Shown here in pieces: positions 28,374 to 39,885 of a DNA stretch of 64,000 bases. The position numbers and the translations under genes are program-made. Each line of letters starts with the position of its first letter. Positions within the stretch are counted from its first letter, which is position 1. The notes under the pieces are model-generated. The model saw only the letters and a list, made by a program, of their open reading frames with translations. It was not told the DNA's origin and searched no databases. The stretch comes from Rhodopseudomonas palustris (GTDB lineage: Bacteria > Pseudomonadota > Alphaproteobacteria > Rhizobiales > Xanthobacteraceae): the NCBI RefSeq assembly GCF_013415845.1, contig NZ_CP058907.1:2046001-2110000 (forward strand), in the 5' to 3' direction.

Positions 28374-29222
28374 AGTGATACGCTGGATCATCGGCTGGAT
28401 CGCACGCGCGCCGAACTGGCGGATTTCTTACGGCGGCGGCGGGAAAGCCTTTCACCGCTCGATGTCGGTCTACCGGTCGGGAAACGGCGGCGGACGCCGG
28501 GGCTTCGCCGTGAGGAAGTCGCCGCCCTCGCGGGCGTTGGCCTCACCTGGTACACGTGGCTGGAACAGGGCCGTGCCATCAAGGTTTCGACGGCCTTTCT
28601 CGACAATGTGTCCCGCGTCCTGAAGCTGGATGAAATCGAGCGGCGGCATCTGTTTCTGCTCGCCCATCAGCGGCCGCCTGCAATGGCGGGACAGGCTTGG
28701 TGCGAGCTGCCGCCGCTGGTGCGCCGATTGCTCGACGATCTCACTCTGCGCCCATCCTATGTGCTGAACCTGCGATGGGATGTGATCGGCTGGAATGATG
28801 CAGCCGAACGTCTGTTCGGGTTCGAGCAGCGCGATCCTGCCGAATGCAATATGCTCTGGATGCTGTTCGCGGACGATCGGCTGAACGGCAGGATCGTGGA
28901 ATGGTCGGTTCAGGCTCCGCAAATTCTGGCGAGCTTTCGGCGGGATTTTGCGCGGTCCCCCGAGGATGAAAGCATGGTGGCGCTCGTCGAGTCGCTGGAG
29001 CAGGTCTCGCCTTCCTTCAGAAAGCTCTGGAACCAGCACGACGTGCATGGACGCTGCGAAGGCCGCCGAAGCTTCATGATCGACGGCCGGGGGCCGGTGG
29101 CGTTCGATCATGCATCCTTCATCGTCGATGAGGAAAAGCACCTCCGCCTTGTGTTCTATGCGGCAGCGGATCACGGAGATGTTGCAGCAGCTCTTCACGC
29201 TGGAAGAGGCCGGCCCCTATAA
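28371..29222 (+). CDS. MmyB-type HTH transcriptional regulator
   Basis: A 283-residue regulator with an XRE helix-turn-helix (about residues 15-90, including TPGLRREEVAALAGVGLTWY) and a C-terminal MmyB-like PAS-fold ligand domain (from about 110: RPSYVLNLRWDVIGWNDAA, then PSFRKLWNQHDV). This class was first noted near the methylenomycin cluster and commonly sits beside a divergent reductase or exporter it represses. Here it faces an MFS exporter across a short promoter with direct repeats. The ligand is unknown. The domain usually binds a hydrophobic molecule such as a fatty acid. Confidence 0.9.
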   Translation: MSDTLDHRLDRTRAELADFLRRRRESLSPLDVGLPVGKRRRTPGLRREEVAALAGVGLTWYTWLEQGRAIKVSTAFLDNVSRVLKLDEIERRHLFLLAHQRPPAMAGQAWCELPPLVRRLLDDLTLRPSYVLNLRWDVIGWNDAAERLFGFEQRDPAECNMLWMLFADDRLNGRIVEWSVQAPQILASFRRDFARSPEDESMVALVESLEQVSPSFRKLWNQHDVHGRCEGRRSFMIDGRGPVAFDHASFIVDEEKHLRLVFYAAADHGDVAAALHAGRGRPL

Positions 29223-29318
29223 GCCCTCGATAGGGGGCTCAGGGCACTTAGCTCATACGAACAGCGACCAGGTGTAGATCCCCGGCCGACGCAAGGCAGC
29301 CGACGCAGAGCAGCCGGC

Positions 29319-29340
29319 GCGAGGCCGTGACCGGCCTCGC
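29319..29340. terminator. Perfect hairpin between the MmyB regulator and ferritin-like genes
   Basis: GCGAGGCCG and CGGCCTCGC form a perfect 9-bp stem with a TGAC loop. It lies 97 bases after the regulator stop and 45 bases beyond the stop of the convergent ferritin-like gene, so it may serve as a shared terminator. There is no strong T run on either strand, which lowers confidence. Confidence 0.5.
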
Positions 29341-29385
29341 GTGGTTGGGTTCGGGAGTGAGCGCGGGCGATCGGGCTACCGGGCT

Positions 29386-29874
29386 TCAGAACGGCACGAT
29401 TTCCATCGGCAGCGGCTTGCCGGCCTTATGCAGCGCGATCCAGCGGTGCAGCTCGGCGACGTGGCCGCTTTCTTCCTCGACGAATTCCTTCGCCAGCATC
29501 TTGATCTCGGGATTGTCGGTGGTGTCGAGGACGTTCTTGTACCAGTCGAACGCACCGGTCTCCGCTTCCAGCGCGATCTGCAGCGCGAGGTCGCGGCCGA
29601 TGAACGGGTCGGTGCCCCAGATCGCGGCGGCTTCCGGGCTTTCCAGGCCCGGCCATTTGAAATCGCCGGGCTCCATCTGCGGGATGTCGCGGAAGCCGGC
29701 GCGGGCCTGCGCGTCGGCCTGATGCATCCGCGAGTAGTCCGCGAGCTGGCGGAACAGCTTCGATACTTCCTTGTTGCCGCAACTATCCATCGCGTCGGCG
29801 AGCTGACCGAACCGCAGCGCGGCTTCCTGCTCCAGCTTGATCGAATGCGCCAGAAACTCTTCGACTGTTTCCAT
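29386..29874 (-). CDS. Ferritin-like (rubrerythrin-type four-helix) protein
   Basis: A 162-residue protein with a ferritin-like four-helix bundle. Likely di-iron ligands are Glu17 in KLEQEAALRF, His51 in YSRMHQAD, Glu103/Glu105 in ALEAETGAF, and Glu134 with His138 in EFVEEESGHVAEL (an ExxH pair). It is homologous to the C-terminal half of the next gene: both share W-P-(G/D) then a (S/T)PE...W segment before helix 3. AGGAGA precedes the ATG at 29874. It begins 53 bases after the fusion gene, so they form one operon. Likely roles are iron storage, peroxide reduction or oxygen scavenging. No C-terminal rubredoxin domain is present. Confidence 0.85.
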   Translation of the reverse strand: METVEEFLAHSIKLEQEAALRFGQLADAMDSCGNKEVSKLFRQLADYSRMHQADAQARAGFRDIPQMEPGDFKWPGLESPEAAAIWGTDPFIGRDLALQIALEAETGAFDWYKNVLDTTDNPEIKMLAKEFVEEESGHVAELHRWIALHKAGKPLPMEIVPF

Positions 29875-29927
29875 CGTCGTCTCTCCTTGTTCGGCCGTCG
29901 CCGGGGTGGCGACGGCCGTCGCTGTCG

Positions 29928-30836
29928 TCAGGCGTTCTCCGCAGCCTTGGCGGCGTGCTTGAGCGACCATTCCTCCTGGGTGATCCAGGCCTCGAGAATG
30001 CGGACGTGCTCGGCTTCTTCGTTGACGAATTCCTTGGCCGCCGCGGCGACCTCGGACGACTTGGTGGTGGCTTCGACCGCACGATAAAACTCGTAGCCGC
30101 GGCGCTCGCCCTGCAGCGCCGCCTTCAGCGCGCCGAGACGGGTGAGCGTGGTGTCCGAGGCCCACACCGCGGCGCGCTCCGGCGTCGCGTGGTCGGGCCA
30201 GGCGTAGTCCGGCGGCACGCTCTTGCTGAGGTCGATGCTGCCGGCGCGCGACTTCACTTCGGCCAGATGCAGCCGCGAGAACTCGGCGAGCTGCGCGAAC
30301 AGCTTCGCCACCGGCGCGTTGCCGGCGTCCGCCATCGCCTTGGCGAGGCTGTCGTAGTGCAGCGCGGCGTCTTCCTCGACCTTGGCAGCGTAGCTGAAGA
30401 ATTCCTGCGGGGTGTTGATCTCCATGCCGCCCTTGTAGTGCGCGGCGGCCGGCGTCACCGCGAGGCGCTGCGGCTTGGTCTTGTCGCCCTCGAACTTGAC
30501 CAGGATGTCTTCGTTGCGGACGAAGCACTGGCAGGCGAGGCGGTAGCGCGGCGGGATGTCGTTGACTTCGGCGTCGACGATCTCCTCCTTGGTGATCTTG
30601 CCAAGCTGGCGCAGCACTTCCTTTTCCTTTTCGGTCAGCGCCACCGCAGCTTTGGCCTTCGGATTGAAGTGCTCGACTTGCACCAGGCAGGAGCCGCATT
30701 CGCCATCCTGACAGTCGAACGGGATCGGAATGCTGTGCGATTTCGCAACCGCCAGAATGGTCCCGCGATCGCCCGCCACCGCATACACGGTCACGTCCTT
30801 GGCCATAACCGGGGACGAGAAGGTAATATTCGCCAC
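29928..30836 (-). CDS. [2Fe-2S] ferredoxin fused to a ferritin-like domain
   Basis: A 302-residue two-domain protein. Residues 10-115 are a plant-type [2Fe-2S] ferredoxin: Cys42, Cys47 and Cys50 in FDCQDGECGSC and Cys102 in YRLACQCF. The gap of 51 residues before the last cysteine is longer than the usual ~29. From about 138 a ferritin-like bundle follows, with candidate di-iron ligands Glu154/155, His190/Glu193, Glu244, and Glu274 with His277. The start is GTG at 30836 with AGGAGA upstream. Built-in electron delivery to a di-iron site is the natural reading. Iron release, peroxide or oxygen reduction, or nitrogenase support are possible. The promoter region has sigma-54 and NifA-type motifs. 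Confidence 0.88.
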   Translation of the reverse strand: MANITFSSPVMAKDVTVYAVAGDRGTILAVAKSHSIPIPFDCQDGECGSCLVQVEHFNPKAKAAVALTEKEKEVLRQLGKITKEEIVDAEVNDIPPRYRLACQCFVRNEDILVKFEGDKTKPQRLAVTPAAAHYKGGMEINTPQEFFSYAAKVEEDAALHYDSLAKAMADAGNAPVAKLFAQLAEFSRLHLAEVKSRAGSIDLSKSVPPDYAWPDHATPERAAVWASDTTLTRLGALKAALQGERRGYEFYRAVEATTKSSEVAAAAKEFVNEEAEHVRILEAWITQEEWSLKHAAKAAENA

Positions 30837-30899
30837 GTCGTACTCTCCTGTCGTCAGGGGTTGATCGACGCCGTGCCGGCGCCCTCCGGCTGCCCCTTG

Positions 30900-30914
30900 G
30901 CAAGAACCAGGCCA
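30900..30914 (-). promoter_or_regulatory. Candidate sigma-54 (-24/-12) promoter of the ferredoxin-ferritin operon
   Basis: On the minus strand the sequence is TGGCCTGGTTCTTGC. Against the consensus TGGCACG-N4-TTGC, 9 of 11 fixed positions match, including the invariant GG and GC with the exact 10-base spacing. It ends about 64 bases before the GTG start of the fusion gene. The combination with the TGT-N10-ACA site at 31001 is what makes it credible. Confidence 0.7.
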
Positions 30915-30923
30915 CGCACGATC

Positions 30924-30942
30924 ACTAAGTAATTCAGTTAGT
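30924..30942. promoter_or_regulatory. Imperfect 19-bp palindrome upstream of the -24/-12 element
   Basis: ACTAAGTAATTCAGTTAGT has perfect 5-base arms (ACTAA/TTAGT) and further symmetric positions inside. It sits in a short AT-rich island just upstream of the proposed -24 element. It could be a second regulator's site, or only the flexible DNA that sigma-54 promoters often have for IHF bending. Confidence 0.4.
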
Positions 30943-31000
30943 TGCAGCGGTGGGGCAGGGGGTTGTCGCGACTAAAGGCGGATCGGATTCCCGACACGAA

Positions 31001-31016
31001 TGTACGAACGGCGACA
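31001..31016. promoter_or_regulatory. NifA-type upstream activator site (TGT-N10-ACA)
   Basis: TGT at 31001-31003 and ACA at 31014-31016 with exactly ten bases between, the NifA recognition pattern. It lies about 105 bases upstream of the proposed -12 element, within the normal range for NifA sites. Six fixed bases will occur by chance about once per 4 kb, so the site only carries weight together with the sigma-54 promoter. degP begins about 190 bases away on the other strand. Confidence 0.55.
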
Positions 31017-31204
31017 ATTCCGCGGCCCGGAGCAGGGCGGGAAGCGACCATCCGTCGCGGCCTCTGGGGGCCGAATACCACCAAAATTACAAAAGTTTAA
31101 TTCCCTCGCCAGAGCCCCGTAAGGCGGCGGGCCCCATCTTCCGAAGCAACGGTGCTGATCAGTTCCGCACCTTCAGTTTCAACTGGTCTTCGGAGACTCC
31201 CGCA

Positions 31205-32776
31205 ATGCACGATCGTCGCCCCGTCCTGTCCACGCAGTCTTCGCACCGGCCCCAGTCGAGGTCGTTGCTGTCGGCGCGCAAGTTCGCGCTGATGGCTTCG
31301 GTCGTCGCCGGTCTCGGCGCGGGGGCTTTCGGGCTCGGCAACGGTTCGTTCGATCTGATCGCCACTCCGGCGCATGCGCAGCAGGTCAGCGCCAACGTTC
31401 AGCCGGCGCAGCAGCCGGTCGGTTTCGCCGACATCGTCGACAAGGTGAAGCCGTCGGTGATCTCGGTGAAGGTCAACATCGCCGACAAGATGGCCAAGAA
31501 CGAAGACCGCGAGGATTTCTCGTTCCCGCCCGGCTCGCCGATGGAGCGGTTCTTCCGCCGGTTCGGCGGCGAGATGCCTCCCGGCCTGCGCGGCCATCGC
31601 GGCGGCGGCATGATCACCGGCCAGGGCTCGGGCTTCTTCATCTCGGCCGACGGCTATGCGGTGACCAACAATCACGTGGTCGAAGGCGCCGACAAGGTCG
31701 AAGTCACCACCGACGACGGCAAGACCTACAAGGCCAAGGTGATCGGCAATGATCCGCGCACCGACTTGGCGCTGATCAAGGTCGAAGGCGGTTCGAGCTT
31801 CCCCTACGCCAAGCTGTCGGAAGGCAAGCCGCGGATCGGTGACTGGGTGCTGGCGGTCGGCAATCCGTTCGGCCTCGGCGGCACCGTGACGGCCGGCATC
31901 GTCTCGGCGATGGGCCGCGACATCGGCAACGGTCCGTACGACGATTTCATCCAGATCGACGCGCCGGTGAACAAGGGCAACTCCGGTGGCCCGGCGTTCA
32001 ACACCGCGGGCGAAGTGGTCGGCGTCAACACCGCGATCTACTCGCCGTCGGGCGGCAGCATCGGCATCGCGTTCTCGATCCCGGCCAACACCGTCAAGGC
32101 GGTGGTCGAGCAGCTCAAGGATCGCGGCTCGGTGAGCCGTGGCTGGATCGGCGTGCAGGTGCAGCCGGTGACGCCGGAGATCGCCGACAGCCTCGGCCTG
32201 AAGAAGGCGGAAGGCGCGCTGGTCGCCGAGCCGCAGTCGAACGGTCCGGCCGCCAAGGCCGGCATCGAATCCGGCGACGTGATCGTCGCGGTCGATGGCA
32301 CGTCGGTGAAGGACGCTCGCGAACTGGCCCGCACCATCGGTGCGTTCGCGCCGGGGCATGCGGTCAAGCTCACCGTGTTCCACAAGGGCAAGGAGCGTGA
32401 GCTGACGCTGACGCTCGGCGAGCTGCCGAACAAGATCGAAGCCAGCAACAACACCGACCGCGGTGATCGCGGTGGAGCCAACCAGGGCCTCGACCTGCCC
32501 AAGCTCGGCCTGACGCTGGCTCCGGCCAGCTCGGTCGCCGGTGCCGGCAAGGATGGCGTGGTGGTGACTGACGTCGATCCGAAGGGTGCCGCAGCCGACC
32601 GCGGCTTCAAGGAAGGCGATGTGATCCTCGAGGTCGCCGGCAAGAACGTGTCGAGCCCGGCGGACGTCCGCGACGTGCTCGCTACGGCGAAGACCGAAAA
32701 CAAGAACAGCGTGCTGGTCCGGGTACGCAGCGGCGGCGCCTCGCGCTTCGTCGCCCTCCCGATCGCCAAGGGCTGA
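31205..32776 (+). CDS. degP: Periplasmic serine protease DegP/HtrA (Do family)
   Basis: A 523-residue Do-type protease that degrades or refolds damaged envelope proteins. The ATG at 31205 gives a signal sequence (basic start, LMASVVAGLGAGAFG, ending ATPAHAQ at about 60). The catalytic triad is His157 in NNHVVEGAD, Asp187 in RTDLALIKVE and Ser260 in KGNSGGPAFN. Two PDZ domains follow (about 310-400 and 430-515). An LA-loop-like segment FSFPPGSPMERFFRRFGGE precedes the histidine. In rhizobia degP follows ccmH and precedes a two-component regulator. Here the second neighbour is kept. Confidence 0.94.
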   Translation: MHDRRPVLSTQSSHRPQSRSLLSARKFALMASVVAGLGAGAFGLGNGSFDLIATPAHAQQVSANVQPAQQPVGFADIVDKVKPSVISVKVNIADKMAKNEDREDFSFPPGSPMERFFRRFGGEMPPGLRGHRGGGMITGQGSGFFISADGYAVTNNHVVEGADKVEVTTDDGKTYKAKVIGNDPRTDLALIKVEGGSSFPYAKLSEGKPRIGDWVLAVGNPFGLGGTVTAGIVSAMGRDIGNGPYDDFIQIDAPVNKGNSGGPAFNTAGEVVGVNTAIYSPSGGSIGIAFSIPANTVKAVVEQLKDRGSVSRGWIGVQVQPVTPEIADSLGLKKAEGALVAEPQSNGPAAKAGIESGDVIVAVDGTSVKDARELARTIGAFAPGHAVKLTVFHKGKERELTLTLGELPNKIEASNNTDRGDRGGANQGLDLPKLGLTLAPASSVAGAGKDGVVVTDVDPKGAAADRGFKEGDVILEVAGKNVSSPADVRDVLATAKTENKNSVLVRVRSGGASRFVALPIAKG

Positions 32777-33053
32777 TCGCCCGCGCTGAGAAATTGGAGA
32801 GTGTCGCCGGCAATCGTCGCCCCCAGCCGACGGCGCTATCCCGGGGACGGGTCGCAACCCCGCTCGTCCCCGCCTTTACACCTTCCGGAAGGAGTTCAGC
32901 CCCCCTCCGTCGGAAGGTCTAGGCGGGCGGTGGAGTCCCCCAGCTCCATCGCCCGTTCCCCCTCCGGGGCCCGATCGAGCCGCCTTGCAAGGAGGCTGAA
33001 GCCGCGTCATGTTGCATCAGAGCCCGCAGAGTTTGAAGAAATCCGACAGCAAT

Positions 33054-35467: not shown

Positions 35468-36916
35468 GTGACCGCCTTCGGTAAACTGATCCGAACCACC
35501 GCGTTTCGGCTGACGCTGGTCTATCTGTTTCTGTTCGGTCTGTTCGCAGCCTCGCTGGTCGCGTACTTCGCCTGGACAACGCGCAAGCTGATCACCGATC
35601 AGATCACCACCACGGTCGATGCCGAGATTGCCGAGATCAACGACATCTACGGCCGACGCGGCTTGCGCGGCGTGGTGTTCACGCTGGAGAACCGCGCGCT
35701 GCGGCCGGGCGCCAATCTCTATCTGGTCACCACGCCGGCAGGGCAGGCAGTCGCCGGCAACGTCGGCGCGCTGGCGCCGGGGGTGATGAGCAAGAACGGC
35801 TGGAGCGAGACCTTCTATCGCCGCCTCGACGATCAGGAGCGTTCCGATCACCGCGCGCTGGTGCGCGTCACCGAGCTGTCGAGCGGGTTTCGCCTGCTCG
35901 TCGGTCGCGATCTCGAAGAGCGGAGACGGCTGAACAAAGTGGTGCGCTCGGCGGCGCAATGGTCGGTGCTGATCGTGGTCGTGCTCGGCCTCGGCGGCGG
36001 CGTGTTTGCGGCGCGCCGCGTGCTGCGGCGGATCGATGCGATGACCGGCACCACGCAGCGGATCATGGCGGGCGACCTGTCGGGCCGGTTGCCGGTCGGG
36101 CGCAGCGGCGACGAGCTCGACCGCCTGGCGGAAAATCTCAATGCGATGCTGGAGCGGATCGAAGCTCTGATGTCGGGCATGAAGGAAGTCTCCGACAACA
36201 TCGCGCACGACCTCAAGACGCCGCTGACGCGGCTGCGCAACCGCGCCGAGGAGGCGCTGGCGCGCGCTGCCAATGAATCCGATTATCGCGTCGCGCTGGA
36301 GCGCACGATCGAGGAGTCCGACGGCCTGATCCGCACCTTCAACGCGCTGTTGATGATCGCTCGCGCCGAAGCCGGCTACGCCAGCGGCGACATGACCGAT
36401 TTCGACGCCGCCGAGATTGCGCGCGACATCCACGAACTGTACGAGCCGCTCGCCGAAGACAACGCGCTCACCCTGCAGGTCGAGGCTCTGGCTGCGCCGG
36501 TCCGGGGCAATCGCGAATTGATCAGCCAGGCGCTCGCCAATCTGGTCGAGAACGCGATCAAATACGGCAAGCCGCAGCCGGCTGCCGAGGCTGACGTTCC
36601 TGCCGCCACCGGCACCGTCCAGATCGAGGCGCGGCGCGACGGCGATCAGGTGCTGCTCAGCGTCACCGACCACGGCATCGGCATTCCGGAAGGCGATCGC
36701 AAGCACGCGATCGAGCGCTTCGTTCGGCTCGAGGCCAGCCGCACGCTGCCGGGCTCCGGGCTCGGCCTCAGCCTCGCTTCGGCGGTGGCGCGGCTGCACG
36801 GTGGCGAACTGCGACTCGCCGACGCGGACCCGGGTTTGCGCGCCACGCTTGCAATTCCGGCCCGCACGGGCGAAGGACAGGCCTCCGCAACAACTCTCGA
36901 ACCGGCGCCGGCATGA
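35468..36916 (+). CDS. Sensor histidine kinase upstream of glnE
   Basis: A 482-residue kinase with a GTG start. It has two membrane segments (about residues 12-35 and 158-178) around a short periplasmic loop. A HAMP domain follows (RRVLRRIDAMTGTTQRIMAG), then the phosphoacceptor His in DNIAHDLKTPLTRLR (about 238-252), the N box in LVENAIKYG and the G2 box GSGLGLSLASAVARLHGG. It is likely the partner of the regulator at 33054, although a chemoreceptor gene and a terminator separate them. Its stop overlaps the glnE start by ATGA, so the two are coupled. Confidence 0.88.
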   Translation: MTAFGKLIRTTAFRLTLVYLFLFGLFAASLVAYFAWTTRKLITDQITTTVDAEIAEINDIYGRRGLRGVVFTLENRALRPGANLYLVTTPAGQAVAGNVGALAPGVMSKNGWSETFYRRLDDQERSDHRALVRVTELSSGFRLLVGRDLEERRRLNKVVRSAAQWSVLIVVVLGLGGGVFAARRVLRRIDAMTGTTQRIMAGDLSGRLPVGRSGDELDRLAENLNAMLERIEALMSGMKEVSDNIAHDLKTPLTRLRNRAEEALARAANESDYRVALERTIEESDGLIRTFNALLMIARAEAGYASGDMTDFDAAEIARDIHELYEPLAEDNALTLQVEALAAPVRGNRELISQALANLVENAIKYGKPQPAAEADVPAATGTVQIEARRDGDQVLLSVTDHGIGIPEGDRKHAIERFVRLEASRTLPGSGLGLSLASAVARLHGGELRLADADPGLRATLAIPARTGEGQASATTLEPAPA

Positions 36917-39885
36917 TTTTTTCCGCGATCACCGCGGACCTCGACAACACCGCTTTGGCCGCGCGCTTCGGCGCCGGACCGCGCCTGTACGATCCCGTAC
37001 TGGCTGCGGAGCGTTGGGCTGGCTGGCTAGTCGATCTTGCGCCTGAACAGGCTGATGCGATCGCGGCCCTCGGCAACGCGTTTCCCGACCTGCAGATCGC
37101 ACTGCAATCGATCGCCGAGGCTTCGCCGTATCTGTTCGATCTGATCCGCGGCGATCCGGTGCGGCTGCTGCGCGTTCTGCGCGGCGCTCCGGAACAGCGG
37201 CTCGCCAAGCTGCTCGAAGACGCCGAGACGTTCGTCGCTGCGGCGTCGGCCGAAGACGAGGTGATGGCGGCGCTGCGCCGGCTGAAGGCCGAGGCTGCGC
37301 TGCTGATCGCGCTGTGCGATATCGGCGGGATCTGGCCGGTGATGCAGGTGACGCAGGCGCTCACTGATCTCGCCGGCCGCTCGGTGCAGATGGCGCTGCG
37401 CTTCCTGCTGCGCCTGGAGGCCGGCCGCGGCCGGATCGTGCCGCCCAATCCCGATTGCCCGGAGCAGGGCTCCGGCCTGATCGTGCTGGCGATGGGCAAG
37501 ATGGGTGCCGGCGAGCTGAACTACTCGAGCGACATCGACCTGATCGTATTCTACGAGCTCGATGCGCCGACGCTCGCGCCCGACATCGAACCGCAGCCGT
37601 TCTTTGTGCGCGTGACCCAGGGGCTCAGCCGGATCCTGCAGCAGCGGCGCGGCGACGGCTACGTGTTCCGCGTCGACCTGCGACTGCGGCCCGATCCGGC
37701 GTCGACGCCGGTGGCGCTCTCGACGGTGTCGGCGCTCGATTACTACGAACGCGAAGGCCGCACTTGGGAACGCGCCGCGATGATCAAGGCGCGGCCCTGC
37801 GCCGGAGATCTCGTCGCAGGCGACGCGCTGCTGTCGGAGATCGCCCCGTTCGTCTGGCGCAAGCATCTCGACTTCGCCGCGCTGTCCGACGTCCACGACA
37901 TGAAGCGGCAGATGCAGACCTATCGCGGCCAGACCGAGATTGCTGTCGAGGGCCACAACGTCAAGGTCGGCCGCGGCGGCATCCGCGAGATCGAGTTCTT
38001 CGCCCAGACCCAGCAACTGATCGCCGGCGGCCGGCATCCGGAATTGCGGGTGCGGCCGACGCTCGAGGCGTTGGAAATCCTGGCGGCGCGCAACTGGATC
38101 ACCATCCAGGCACGCGACGAGCTGACCGAAGCGTATCTGTTCCTGCGCAAGGTCGAGCACCGCGTGCAGATGATCGCCGACGAGCAGACCCACGCGCTGC
38201 CCGACACCGTCGAGGCGATCGAACGGTTTTCGCGTTTCCTCGGCTACGACAGCCGGGACTCGTTTGCGCGCGATCTGCTCGGCTATCTCGAACGGGTGCA
38301 GGGCCATTACGCCAAGCTGTTCGAGGGCGATCCGACCGGCACCGCCAAGCTGCCGCCGGTCGATTACGGCGCCGGTCCTGAAGACACGCGGCTGCTCGAT
38401 CACCTGCTGTCGCTCGGCTACAAGAAGCCGCTGATGATCGCGACCACGCTGCAGCAGTGGATGACCGGCGGCTATCGCGTGCTCAAGGTCGAGACCACGC
38501 AGCGCGCATTCCGCGAATTCGTGCCGGCGCTGATCGAGGAGCTGGCGCGCGCCGAACAGCCGGACGACGCCGTCAATGCGTTCGATCGCCTGCTGCAGGC
38601 GCTGCATCGCGGCGGCCGGCTGATTTCGCTGCTGAGCCAGAACCGCGAACTCTTGACGCTGGTGGCGCTGGTGCTCGGCGCCGCGCCGCGGCTCGGCGAC
38701 ATGCTGGCACGGCAGCCGCAGATTCTCGACGGCCTGATCGACCCGCGGTTCTTCGGCGCCATGCCGGATCAAACCGAACTGTCGGCGCGGCTGGCCGTCA
38801 CGCTGGCGGATGCGGGGTCGTACGAAGAGTTTCTCGATCGGCTGCGGCTGTTCGGACAGGAGAGCCTGTTCCTGATCGGCACGCGGATTCTGTCCGGCAC
38901 GGTTCCGACCCAGCAGGCGGCGGTGGCATTCGCCGATGTCGCCGAAGGCATCGTCGGCACGGTGCATGGCCTGGTCAGCGAGCAGTTCGCCTCGACCTAC
39001 GGCCGGGTCAAAGGACAGCAGACCGCGATCTTGGCGATGGGCAAGCTCGGCAGCCGCGAGATGACGGCGTCGTCCGATCTCGACCTGATCCTGATCTATG
39101 ATTTCGACGACGATCAGCCCGACAGTGACGGCGAACGCTCGCTGCACGGTGCGCAATACTTCGCTCGGTTCACCCAGCGGCTGATCTCGGCGTTCACCAC
39201 GCGGACCAATTACGGCGTGCTGTACGACGTCGACATGCGGCTCCGGCCGTCGGGCCGCGCCGGTCCGGTGGCGTCGCGGCTGGATGCGTTCGCCGCCTAT
39301 CAGGAGCAGGAAGCCTGGACCTGGGAGCATCTGGCGCTGACCCGGGCGCGGGTGATCTCGGCCGCGCCGGAGTTTCGCAGCAGGATTGAGCAGGTGATCC
39401 GTGCGGTGCTGACGCGGCCGCGCGACGCGGCGATCATCGCCAACGACGTCGCCGAAATGCGCCGCGCGATCGCGCAGGAGAAGGGCGAGGACGACGTCTG
39501 GGATCTGAAATATGCAGCCGGCGGCATGGTCGATATCGACTTCATCGCGCAGTATCTGCAGCTCGTGCATGCGCACGAGGCGGCCGACATCCTGCACGTC
39601 AACACGCTGTCGGCTCTCGATAATGCCAACCGGCTCGGCTTCCTGACGCAGGCCGATGCCGAAGTGCTGCGGCCCGCAGCGCGGCTGTATCAGAACCTGA
39701 CGCAGATCCTGCGGCTGTGCGTCAGCGAGAAGTTCAATCCGGACACCGCCGGCGACGATCTGTTGCGGGTGATGGTGCGCGCCGGCGACGCGCCGGACTT
39801 CTCGTCGTTGCAGGCGCGGGTGAAAGAGACCCAGTCCGACGTTCGCGCGATCTTCAACCGCCTGATCGGCGGCGAGGACGCTTAG
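36913..39885 (+). CDS. glnE: Bifunctional glutamine synthetase adenylyltransferase/adenylyl-removing enzyme
   Basis: A 990-residue enzyme that adds or removes AMP on glutamine synthetase in response to PII, tuning ammonia assimilation. The two nucleotidyltransferase domains are visible: GELNYSSDIDLIVFYE (about residue 199 on, adenylyl-removing half) and GSREMTASSDLDLILIYD (about 714 on, adenylylating half). The central regulatory region and helical C-terminus have normal length. It overlaps the kinase gene by 4 bases. The arrangement kinase-glnE is shared with relatives. Confidence 0.96.
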   Translation: MIFSAITADLDNTALAARFGAGPRLYDPVLAAERWAGWLVDLAPEQADAIAALGNAFPDLQIALQSIAEASPYLFDLIRGDPVRLLRVLRGAPEQRLAKLLEDAETFVAAASAEDEVMAALRRLKAEAALLIALCDIGGIWPVMQVTQALTDLAGRSVQMALRFLLRLEAGRGRIVPPNPDCPEQGSGLIVLAMGKMGAGELNYSSDIDLIVFYELDAPTLAPDIEPQPFFVRVTQGLSRILQQRRGDGYVFRVDLRLRPDPASTPVALSTVSALDYYEREGRTWERAAMIKARPCAGDLVAGDALLSEIAPFVWRKHLDFAALSDVHDMKRQMQTYRGQTEIAVEGHNVKVGRGGIREIEFFAQTQQLIAGGRHPELRVRPTLEALEILAARNWITIQARDELTEAYLFLRKVEHRVQMIADEQTHALPDTVEAIERFSRFLGYDSRDSFARDLLGYLERVQGHYAKLFEGDPTGTAKLPPVDYGAGPEDTRLLDHLLSLGYKKPLMIATTLQQWMTGGYRVLKVETTQRAFREFVPALIEELARAEQPDDAVNAFDRLLQALHRGGRLISLLSQNRELLTLVALVLGAAPRLGDMLARQPQILDGLIDPRFFGAMPDQTELSARLAVTLADAGSYEEFLDRLRLFGQESLFLIGTRILSGTVPTQQAAVAFADVAEGIVGTVHGLVSEQFASTYGRVKGQQTAILAMGKLGSREMTASSDLDLILIYDFDDDQPDSDGERSLHGAQYFARFTQRLISAFTTRTNYGVLYDVDMRLRPSGRAGPVASRLDAFAAYQEQEAWTWEHLALTRARVISAAPEFRSRIEQVIRAVLTRPRDAAIIANDVAEMRRAIAQEKGEDDVWDLKYAAGGMVDIDFIAQYLQLVHAHEAADILHVNTLSALDNANRLGFLTQADAEVLRPAARLYQNLTQILRLCVSEKFNPDTAGDDLLRVMVRAGDAPDFSSLQARVKETQSDVRAIFNRLIGGEDA

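Follow-up and report, generated by a model that had tools for sequence, protein, structure and literature searches.

How nitrogenase survives when oxygen is present has long been asked, and the problem is a bottleneck for attempts to engineer N2 fixation into aerobic hosts. In Azotobacter, the ferredoxin known as Shethna protein II (FeSII) locks nitrogenase into a complex that tolerates oxygen. A 2024 paper states that FeSII protection has been demonstrated in two Azotobacter species only (PubMed Central (PMC) entry PMC11301756). In two articles (PMC8777916, PMC6925177), FdxD of Rhodobacter capsulatus is presented as a NifA-dependent [2Fe-2S] ferredoxin from a fesII-like gene. A 2026 article describes Rhodopseudomonas as seemingly lacking a powerful nitrogenase-protecting mechanism; its main text holds neither the word "ferredoxin" nor "rubrerythrin", and the only RPA numbers in it are RPA1432 and RPA4249 (PMC13327599). 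The DNA analysed here is a 64,000-nucleotide stretch of Rhodopseudomonas palustris (assembly GCF_013415845.1, contig NZ_CP058907.1, positions 2,046,001 to 2,110,000, i.e., 2.046–2.110 Mb of the 5.32-Mb genome), referred to as the window. It carries a two-gene operon in which an FeSII relative is joined to a ferritin-like bundle and followed by a companion bundle, an arrangement that suggests built-in oxygen shielding of nitrogenase. With a rough probability of 0.5, the operon is a NifA-driven nitrogenase protector. Its features, all on the minus strand, are as follows.

29928..30836, minus: fusion gene, 302 amino acids, FeSII-type [2Fe-2S] ferredoxin plus ferritin-like bundle, GTG start
30845..30849, minus: AGGAG, likely ribosome-binding site of the fusion gene, 8 bases before the GTG
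30483..30836, minus: FeSII (Shethna protein II) domain, residues 1-118, with cluster cysteines Cys42, 47, 50 and 102 (PDB sequence match and Foldseek)
30414..30482, minus: linker, residues 119-141, partly of low model confidence (predicted local distance difference test below 50 at 118-124 and 128-130)
29931..30413, minus: ferritin-like/COG1633 bundle, residues 142-302, with E154, S187xxH190, E244 and E274xxH277
29386..29874, minus: companion ferritin-like protein, 162 amino acids, with E15, S48xxH51, E105 and E135xxH138, ATG start
30900..30914, minus: -24/-12 (sigma-54) element TGGC-N7-TTGC (TGGC-CTGGTTC-TTGC)
31001..31016, minus: TGT-N10-ACA, NifA upstream activator site by consensus

The companion gene follows the fusion gene after a gap of 53 bp and is preceded by its own AGGAG (29887-29883, minus). 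An original prediction, made from the sequence of the window, had described the ferredoxin–bundle fusion with its four cysteines and a second ferritin-like gene next to it; the open reading frames 30836-29928 and 29874-29386 confirmed both, and the two upstream elements (30914-30900 and 31016-31001) were found exactly where it had placed them.

Residues 1-118 of the fusion matched 5ffi_A in the PDB sequence search with an E value of 1.6e-34, whereas the next ferredoxin reached only 0.02, and this gap in score ruled out a generic 2Fe-2S ferredoxin. In Foldseek, 9cu1_N ranked first for the domain (E 5.3e-12). Residues 1-118 thus belong to the FeSII family, with the likeness spanning the entire length of the domain: the alignment with Azotobacter FeSII is free of gaps at about 50% identity and includes the four cysteines and the 59-96 "N-loop" stretch. 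The cysteines were invariant in all 58 aligned fusions, a set that includes the one from the window and was chosen for diversity from 120 listed homologs and 61 fusion loci. The R. palustris protein differs from Azotobacter FeSII in carrying a ferritin-like bundle in the same chain and having another as its partner, in not conserving K14/K15 (as is the case in the fusions generally) and in the location of its gene far from the nif cluster. FdxD, compared by its published description, is alike in being FeSII-like, NifA-dependent and tied to N2 fixation with oxygen present, and it differs in being described as a [2Fe-2S] ferredoxin of a fesII-like gene.

No description of an FeSII–rubrerythrin or FeSII–ferritin fusion was found in the open-licence PMC literature searched. 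The words "Shethna" and "rubrerythrin" occur together in one article, on redox-potential prediction (PMC12606649). For a ferredoxin called "fer2", Tsoy et al. 2016 (PMC4999443) list candidate NifA sites in both Rhizobiales and Rhodospirillales; it may be the same gene as the fusion.

The second part of the fusion has the four-helix ferritin-like fold and by sequence is nearest to 2oh3, a rubrerythrin-like member of COG1633. It shares about 41% identity with the companion. The predicted "di-iron bundle" held in part, since the protein is ferritin-like and retains five of the six customary di-iron ligands, namely three Glu and two His; the complete set E, ExxH, E, ExxH was found neither in the fusions nor in the companions, Ser standing in place of the helix-2 Glu. 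Known erythrins of the rubrerythrin/COG1633 group (2oh3, TM1526) are alike in fold and in the greater part of the Glu/His pattern, and 2oh3 also has Ser at the position where the helix-2 Glu is replaced in the fusion. Helix-2 ExxH was present in 11 of the 14 other COG1633 rows. Because SxxH occurs outside the FeSII-linked pair as well, in 2oh3 (Magnetospirillum) and in loci L015, L030 and L032, the altered metal site probably predates the fusion. This Ser-for-Glu site, which the fused bundles and the companions have in common, is a well-defined problem for bioinorganic chemistry.

The pairing of a [2Fe-2S] protein and a ferritin-like fold resembles that of bacterioferritin and its ferredoxin Bfd, and a self-reducing iron store of that kind had been put forward in the original prediction. 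It was not supported: neither family matched the fusion or the companion above the cut-off, no Bfd-type domain was found, the bundle is COG1633/2oh3-like and it is one Glu ligand short. The family matches and ligands make such a store unlikely; the fold alone would not exclude it. The broader idea of a self-reducing iron store, or of an iron donor for nitrogenase cofactor assembly, is very improbable, as the bundle lies nearest to COG1633/2oh3 and not to cage ferritins and its canonical ligand set is incomplete. An encapsulated ferritin was also rejected. The second helix pair of the companion was weakly like EncB/EncFtn-type models (E 1.7e-9 and 1.1e-7, below the cut-off; no encapsulin search was made), EncB/EncFtn-type PDB profiles matched the companion at E 6e-5 and weaker, and the Pfam Ferritin match of the companion (E 0.11) stayed under the cut-off.

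The search for homologs at E 1e-10 revealed 1064 proteins; among the 120 listed, most carry Fer2+Rubrerythrin and automatic database names such as "rubrerythrin/ferredoxin" occur. The set of loci comprised 80 of 115 confirmed loci, among them 61 named fusion loci (L062-L122). The closest named relatives of the fusion are from Rhodopseudomonas, the first three of them at 93-95% protein identity, and the fusion recurs across alpha- and betaproteobacterial diazotrophs. A companion, counted at 55% identity and near-full length, was detected in 37 of the 61 fusion loci, some of which end at a contig edge (e.g., L119). It was located directly downstream in 31 loci, divergently in five, mostly betaproteobacterial (L104, L109, L112, L113 and L116), and about 4.5 kb upstream in one (L084). 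Four genomes of the family sample described below carry an unfused FeSII gene followed directly by a companion-type gene, and in G035 the FeSII and companion-type genes are both inside the nif cluster, 5 kb apart. In the tree, the fused bundles formed one clade (support 100/100), and 28 of 29 companion rows grouped with five rows from FeSII-pair genomes and their kin (93/91, a level that the program did not star). Outside the main companion group were the companion of L092 and the gene of G035. A free pair thus exists beside the fused form, and the fused bundle has a single origin in the sample. The two bundles had been taken as products of a probable duplication. They are indeed paralogs, but with an old split, a separate fused clade and a companion type that also stands beside unfused FeSII, so that a recent duplication is not supported.

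The connection with nitrogenase was examined in three genome samples, which overlap in part and were searched at E 1e-10 (class and phylum) or 1e-20 (family), with a limited number of candidates scored per genome; absences are not proof. FeSII-domain carriers made up 6 of 289 genomes in the class sample, all with nifH (9/289 overall), 24 of 149 in the family sample, all with nifD (42/149 overall), and 17 of 397 in the phylum sample, 16 of them with nifD (45/397 overall). Fisher tests for FeSII versus nif, which ignore relatedness, gave p values of 1e-10, 1e-16 and 8e-16, respectively. At the genus level in the family sample the association was 7/7 versus 6/34 (p 8e-5); when only the fusion was considered, it was 3/3 genera (p 0.03). 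Fused forms were found in four class, 12 family and four phylum genomes, i.e., 16 distinct ones, and all 16 had nitrogenase genes, which supports the proposed link to nitrogenase.

As had been noted, the R. palustris operon, at 2.08 Mb, is not part of the main nif cluster, at 5.07 Mb, and no nif/fix genes were found in the retrieved flanking DNA (at most 10 kb) of the Rhodopseudomonas fusions (L062-L072). Among the 61 named loci, 13 had at least two nif/fix-region genes matched in these flanks, including loci from Rhodopila, Variovorax, Azospirillum, a Methylocystaceae metagenome-assembled genome and several Burkholderiales; five more loci with one matching query each (L084, L085, L094, L098 and L108) were left out of this count. 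The queries checked were NifA, NifB, NifE, FeoB, the NifX-associated protein, the electron transfer flavoprotein ETF-beta (FixA-like) and a FixC-like protein, with NifH and NifD assigned by place. Three other queries are, judging by position, presumably a NifK fragment, FixB and FixX, and the X-numbered queries are unnamed. A feoB gene was confirmed beside the main nif cluster (G000:C1:5079030-5081253), and the small gene next to it we take by its position to be feoA-like.

The -24/-12 motif on its own was dismissed as proof of a promoter, as TGGC-N7-TTGC alone had 343 matches in the genome (184 for the reversed-pattern control). TGT-N10-ACA followed by this motif at 70-100 bp occurred at two sites in the 5.32-Mb genome, upstream of the fusion operon and of nifH. 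The reversed-pattern control for the combination gave one match, and the combined pattern alone would be weak; the nifH match and conservation strengthen it. In 12 Rhodopseudomonas upstream regions, all eight specified -24/-12 bases were invariant, compared with 29 of 216 other columns, as were three of the six specified bases of the activator site. Between -40 and -200 of the 61 named fusion genes, the strict -24/-12 form was found in 26, a relaxed form in 33 and one with an activator site in 17; for 615 other gene starts, predicted within the same loci and not curated, the numbers were 10, 7 and 3. Rhodopseudomonas (L062-L072) supplied 11 of the 26 strict cases and 11 of the 17 with an activator site, leaving 15 of 50 and 6 of 50, respectively, outside this genus. 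The genes for NifA and RpoN are present in the R. palustris genome, and a simple consensus scan of 29200-31300 detected no sigma-70 promoter. The predicted NifA/sigma-54 promoter was therefore upheld at the level of sequence, which strongly suggests that the operon is turned on together with nifH.

Several observations weigh against the protective reading. According to one report, K14 and K15 of Azotobacter FeSII are necessary for nitrogenase binding (PMC3045800). The equivalents in the R. palustris fusion are Val15 and Thr16 (counting from Met-1), and in each of the 58 aligned fusions these places are taken by a hydrophobic residue and Thr, with no basic residue at either position, so that nitrogenase docking is not assured. 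Among 38 free FeSII-like proteins from the fetched loci, none had Lys-Lys, four had Lys-Arg (L052-L055), 17 Lys-Thr and 17 no basic residue. The Lys-Lys pair thus appears to be an Azotobacter trait within the compared set, the fusions being barer at these positions than many free relatives. Position 13 was basic (K or R) in 57 of 58 fusions and the His equivalent to H55 was present in 50 of 58. In the bundles, the helix-2 Glu ligand was replaced by Ser in 58 of 58 fusions and in 27 of 27 companions (that of the window plus 26 from the 37 loci with a companion), which was the ligand loss foreseen as a possible objection. The fusion of Roseiarcus fermentans (L111:10001-10888), on a long tree branch, lacks both metal-site His and has Leu and Arg instead; it offers a natural test of whether the bundle metal is required. 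The domain orientation in the fusion model is uncertain (predicted template modelling score 0.52). Neither promoter form was found at 25 of the 61 fusion loci, including all of L074-L081 (the Methylocystis group). FeSII was missing from 18 of the 42 nif-positive genomes of the family sample and is therefore not essential for N2 fixation. Finally, G492 (99% complete, phylum sample) has free FeSII only (G492:C3:7185-7532) and no nifD match; either nif is missing from this draft or FeSII has another client.

The protective reading would work as follows. NifA and sigma-54 would turn the operon on alongside nifH. Oxidation of the [2Fe-2S] cluster of the FeSII domain by O2 or peroxide would allow the domain to bind the nitrogenase proteins, which would be kept in an O2-tolerant complex, inactive but reversible, as is known for Azotobacter FeSII. 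The flexible linker would tether the FeSII domain to the four-helix bundle, which may pair with the companion bundle. In the least certain step, the bundle, most likely with one or two iron ions bound, would remove O2 or H2O2, or catch iron, beside the docked nitrogenase with electrons from the tethered cluster. The complete composite would combine FeSII docking with local O2/peroxide removal, or with the trapping of iron that has been released, in a single tethered protein and its companion bundle; it is put forward tentatively, with less confidence than protection as such. An O2/peroxide scavenger for nitrogenase had already been proposed; the direction towards protection was right, and the FeSII type of the ferredoxin had been missed.

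Among the alternatives, a soluble rubrerythrin-like peroxidase or oxidase, with the [2Fe-2S] domain as donor replacing rubredoxin, might scavenge H2O2 or O2 in N2-fixing cells without docking to nitrogenase. The erythrin-type fold with five ligand positions kept, the nif-type promoter and the missing Azotobacter binding lysines agree with this, as does the fusion of a redox domain to an erythrin, known from rubrerythrin itself, where it is rubredoxin and not an N-terminal FeSII-type [2Fe-2S] domain. It is nevertheless considered unlikely, given the loss of the canonical helix-2 ExxH and a ferredoxin domain that is FeSII-like throughout instead of generic. A ferredoxin under a nif-type promoter might equally be an electron carrier feeding nitrogenase. 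A midpoint of -262 mV is too high for reduction of the Fe protein. This is the value for Azotobacter FeSII (PMC11301756), and with a domain of the FeSII type such a carrier has only a slim chance of being correct. The altered metal site and the flexible linker would also suit a redox or iron sensor that has either NifA or the maturation machinery as its target and does not bind nitrogenase. No signalling or DNA-binding domain passed the Pfam cut-off in the fusion or the companion (conserved regulatory neighbours were not searched for), and this role seems very improbable. The locus supplies the Rhodopseudomonas group with an FeSII homolog that bears a new domain and can be tested directly, in a phototroph amenable to genetics.

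Rhodoblastus sp. 17X3 (L108, L123) carries both a fused FeSII–ferritin gene and a free FeSII-like gene, on separate contigs. In the window, the operon has no further members. Its downstream neighbour is a convergent gene for an MmyB-type regulator, and upstream, on the opposite strand, lies a trypsin/PDZ (DegP-like) protease gene. The glnE gene (glutamine synthetase adenylyltransferase, Pfam GlnE; 36913-39885, plus strand), a nitrogen-status gene, is located about 6 kb from the operon, probably by coincidence. Directly after the DegP-like gene, an Rfam match to the Bradyrhizobiaceae small RNA BjrC80 was identified at 32792-32960 (plus strand, 149.5 bits).
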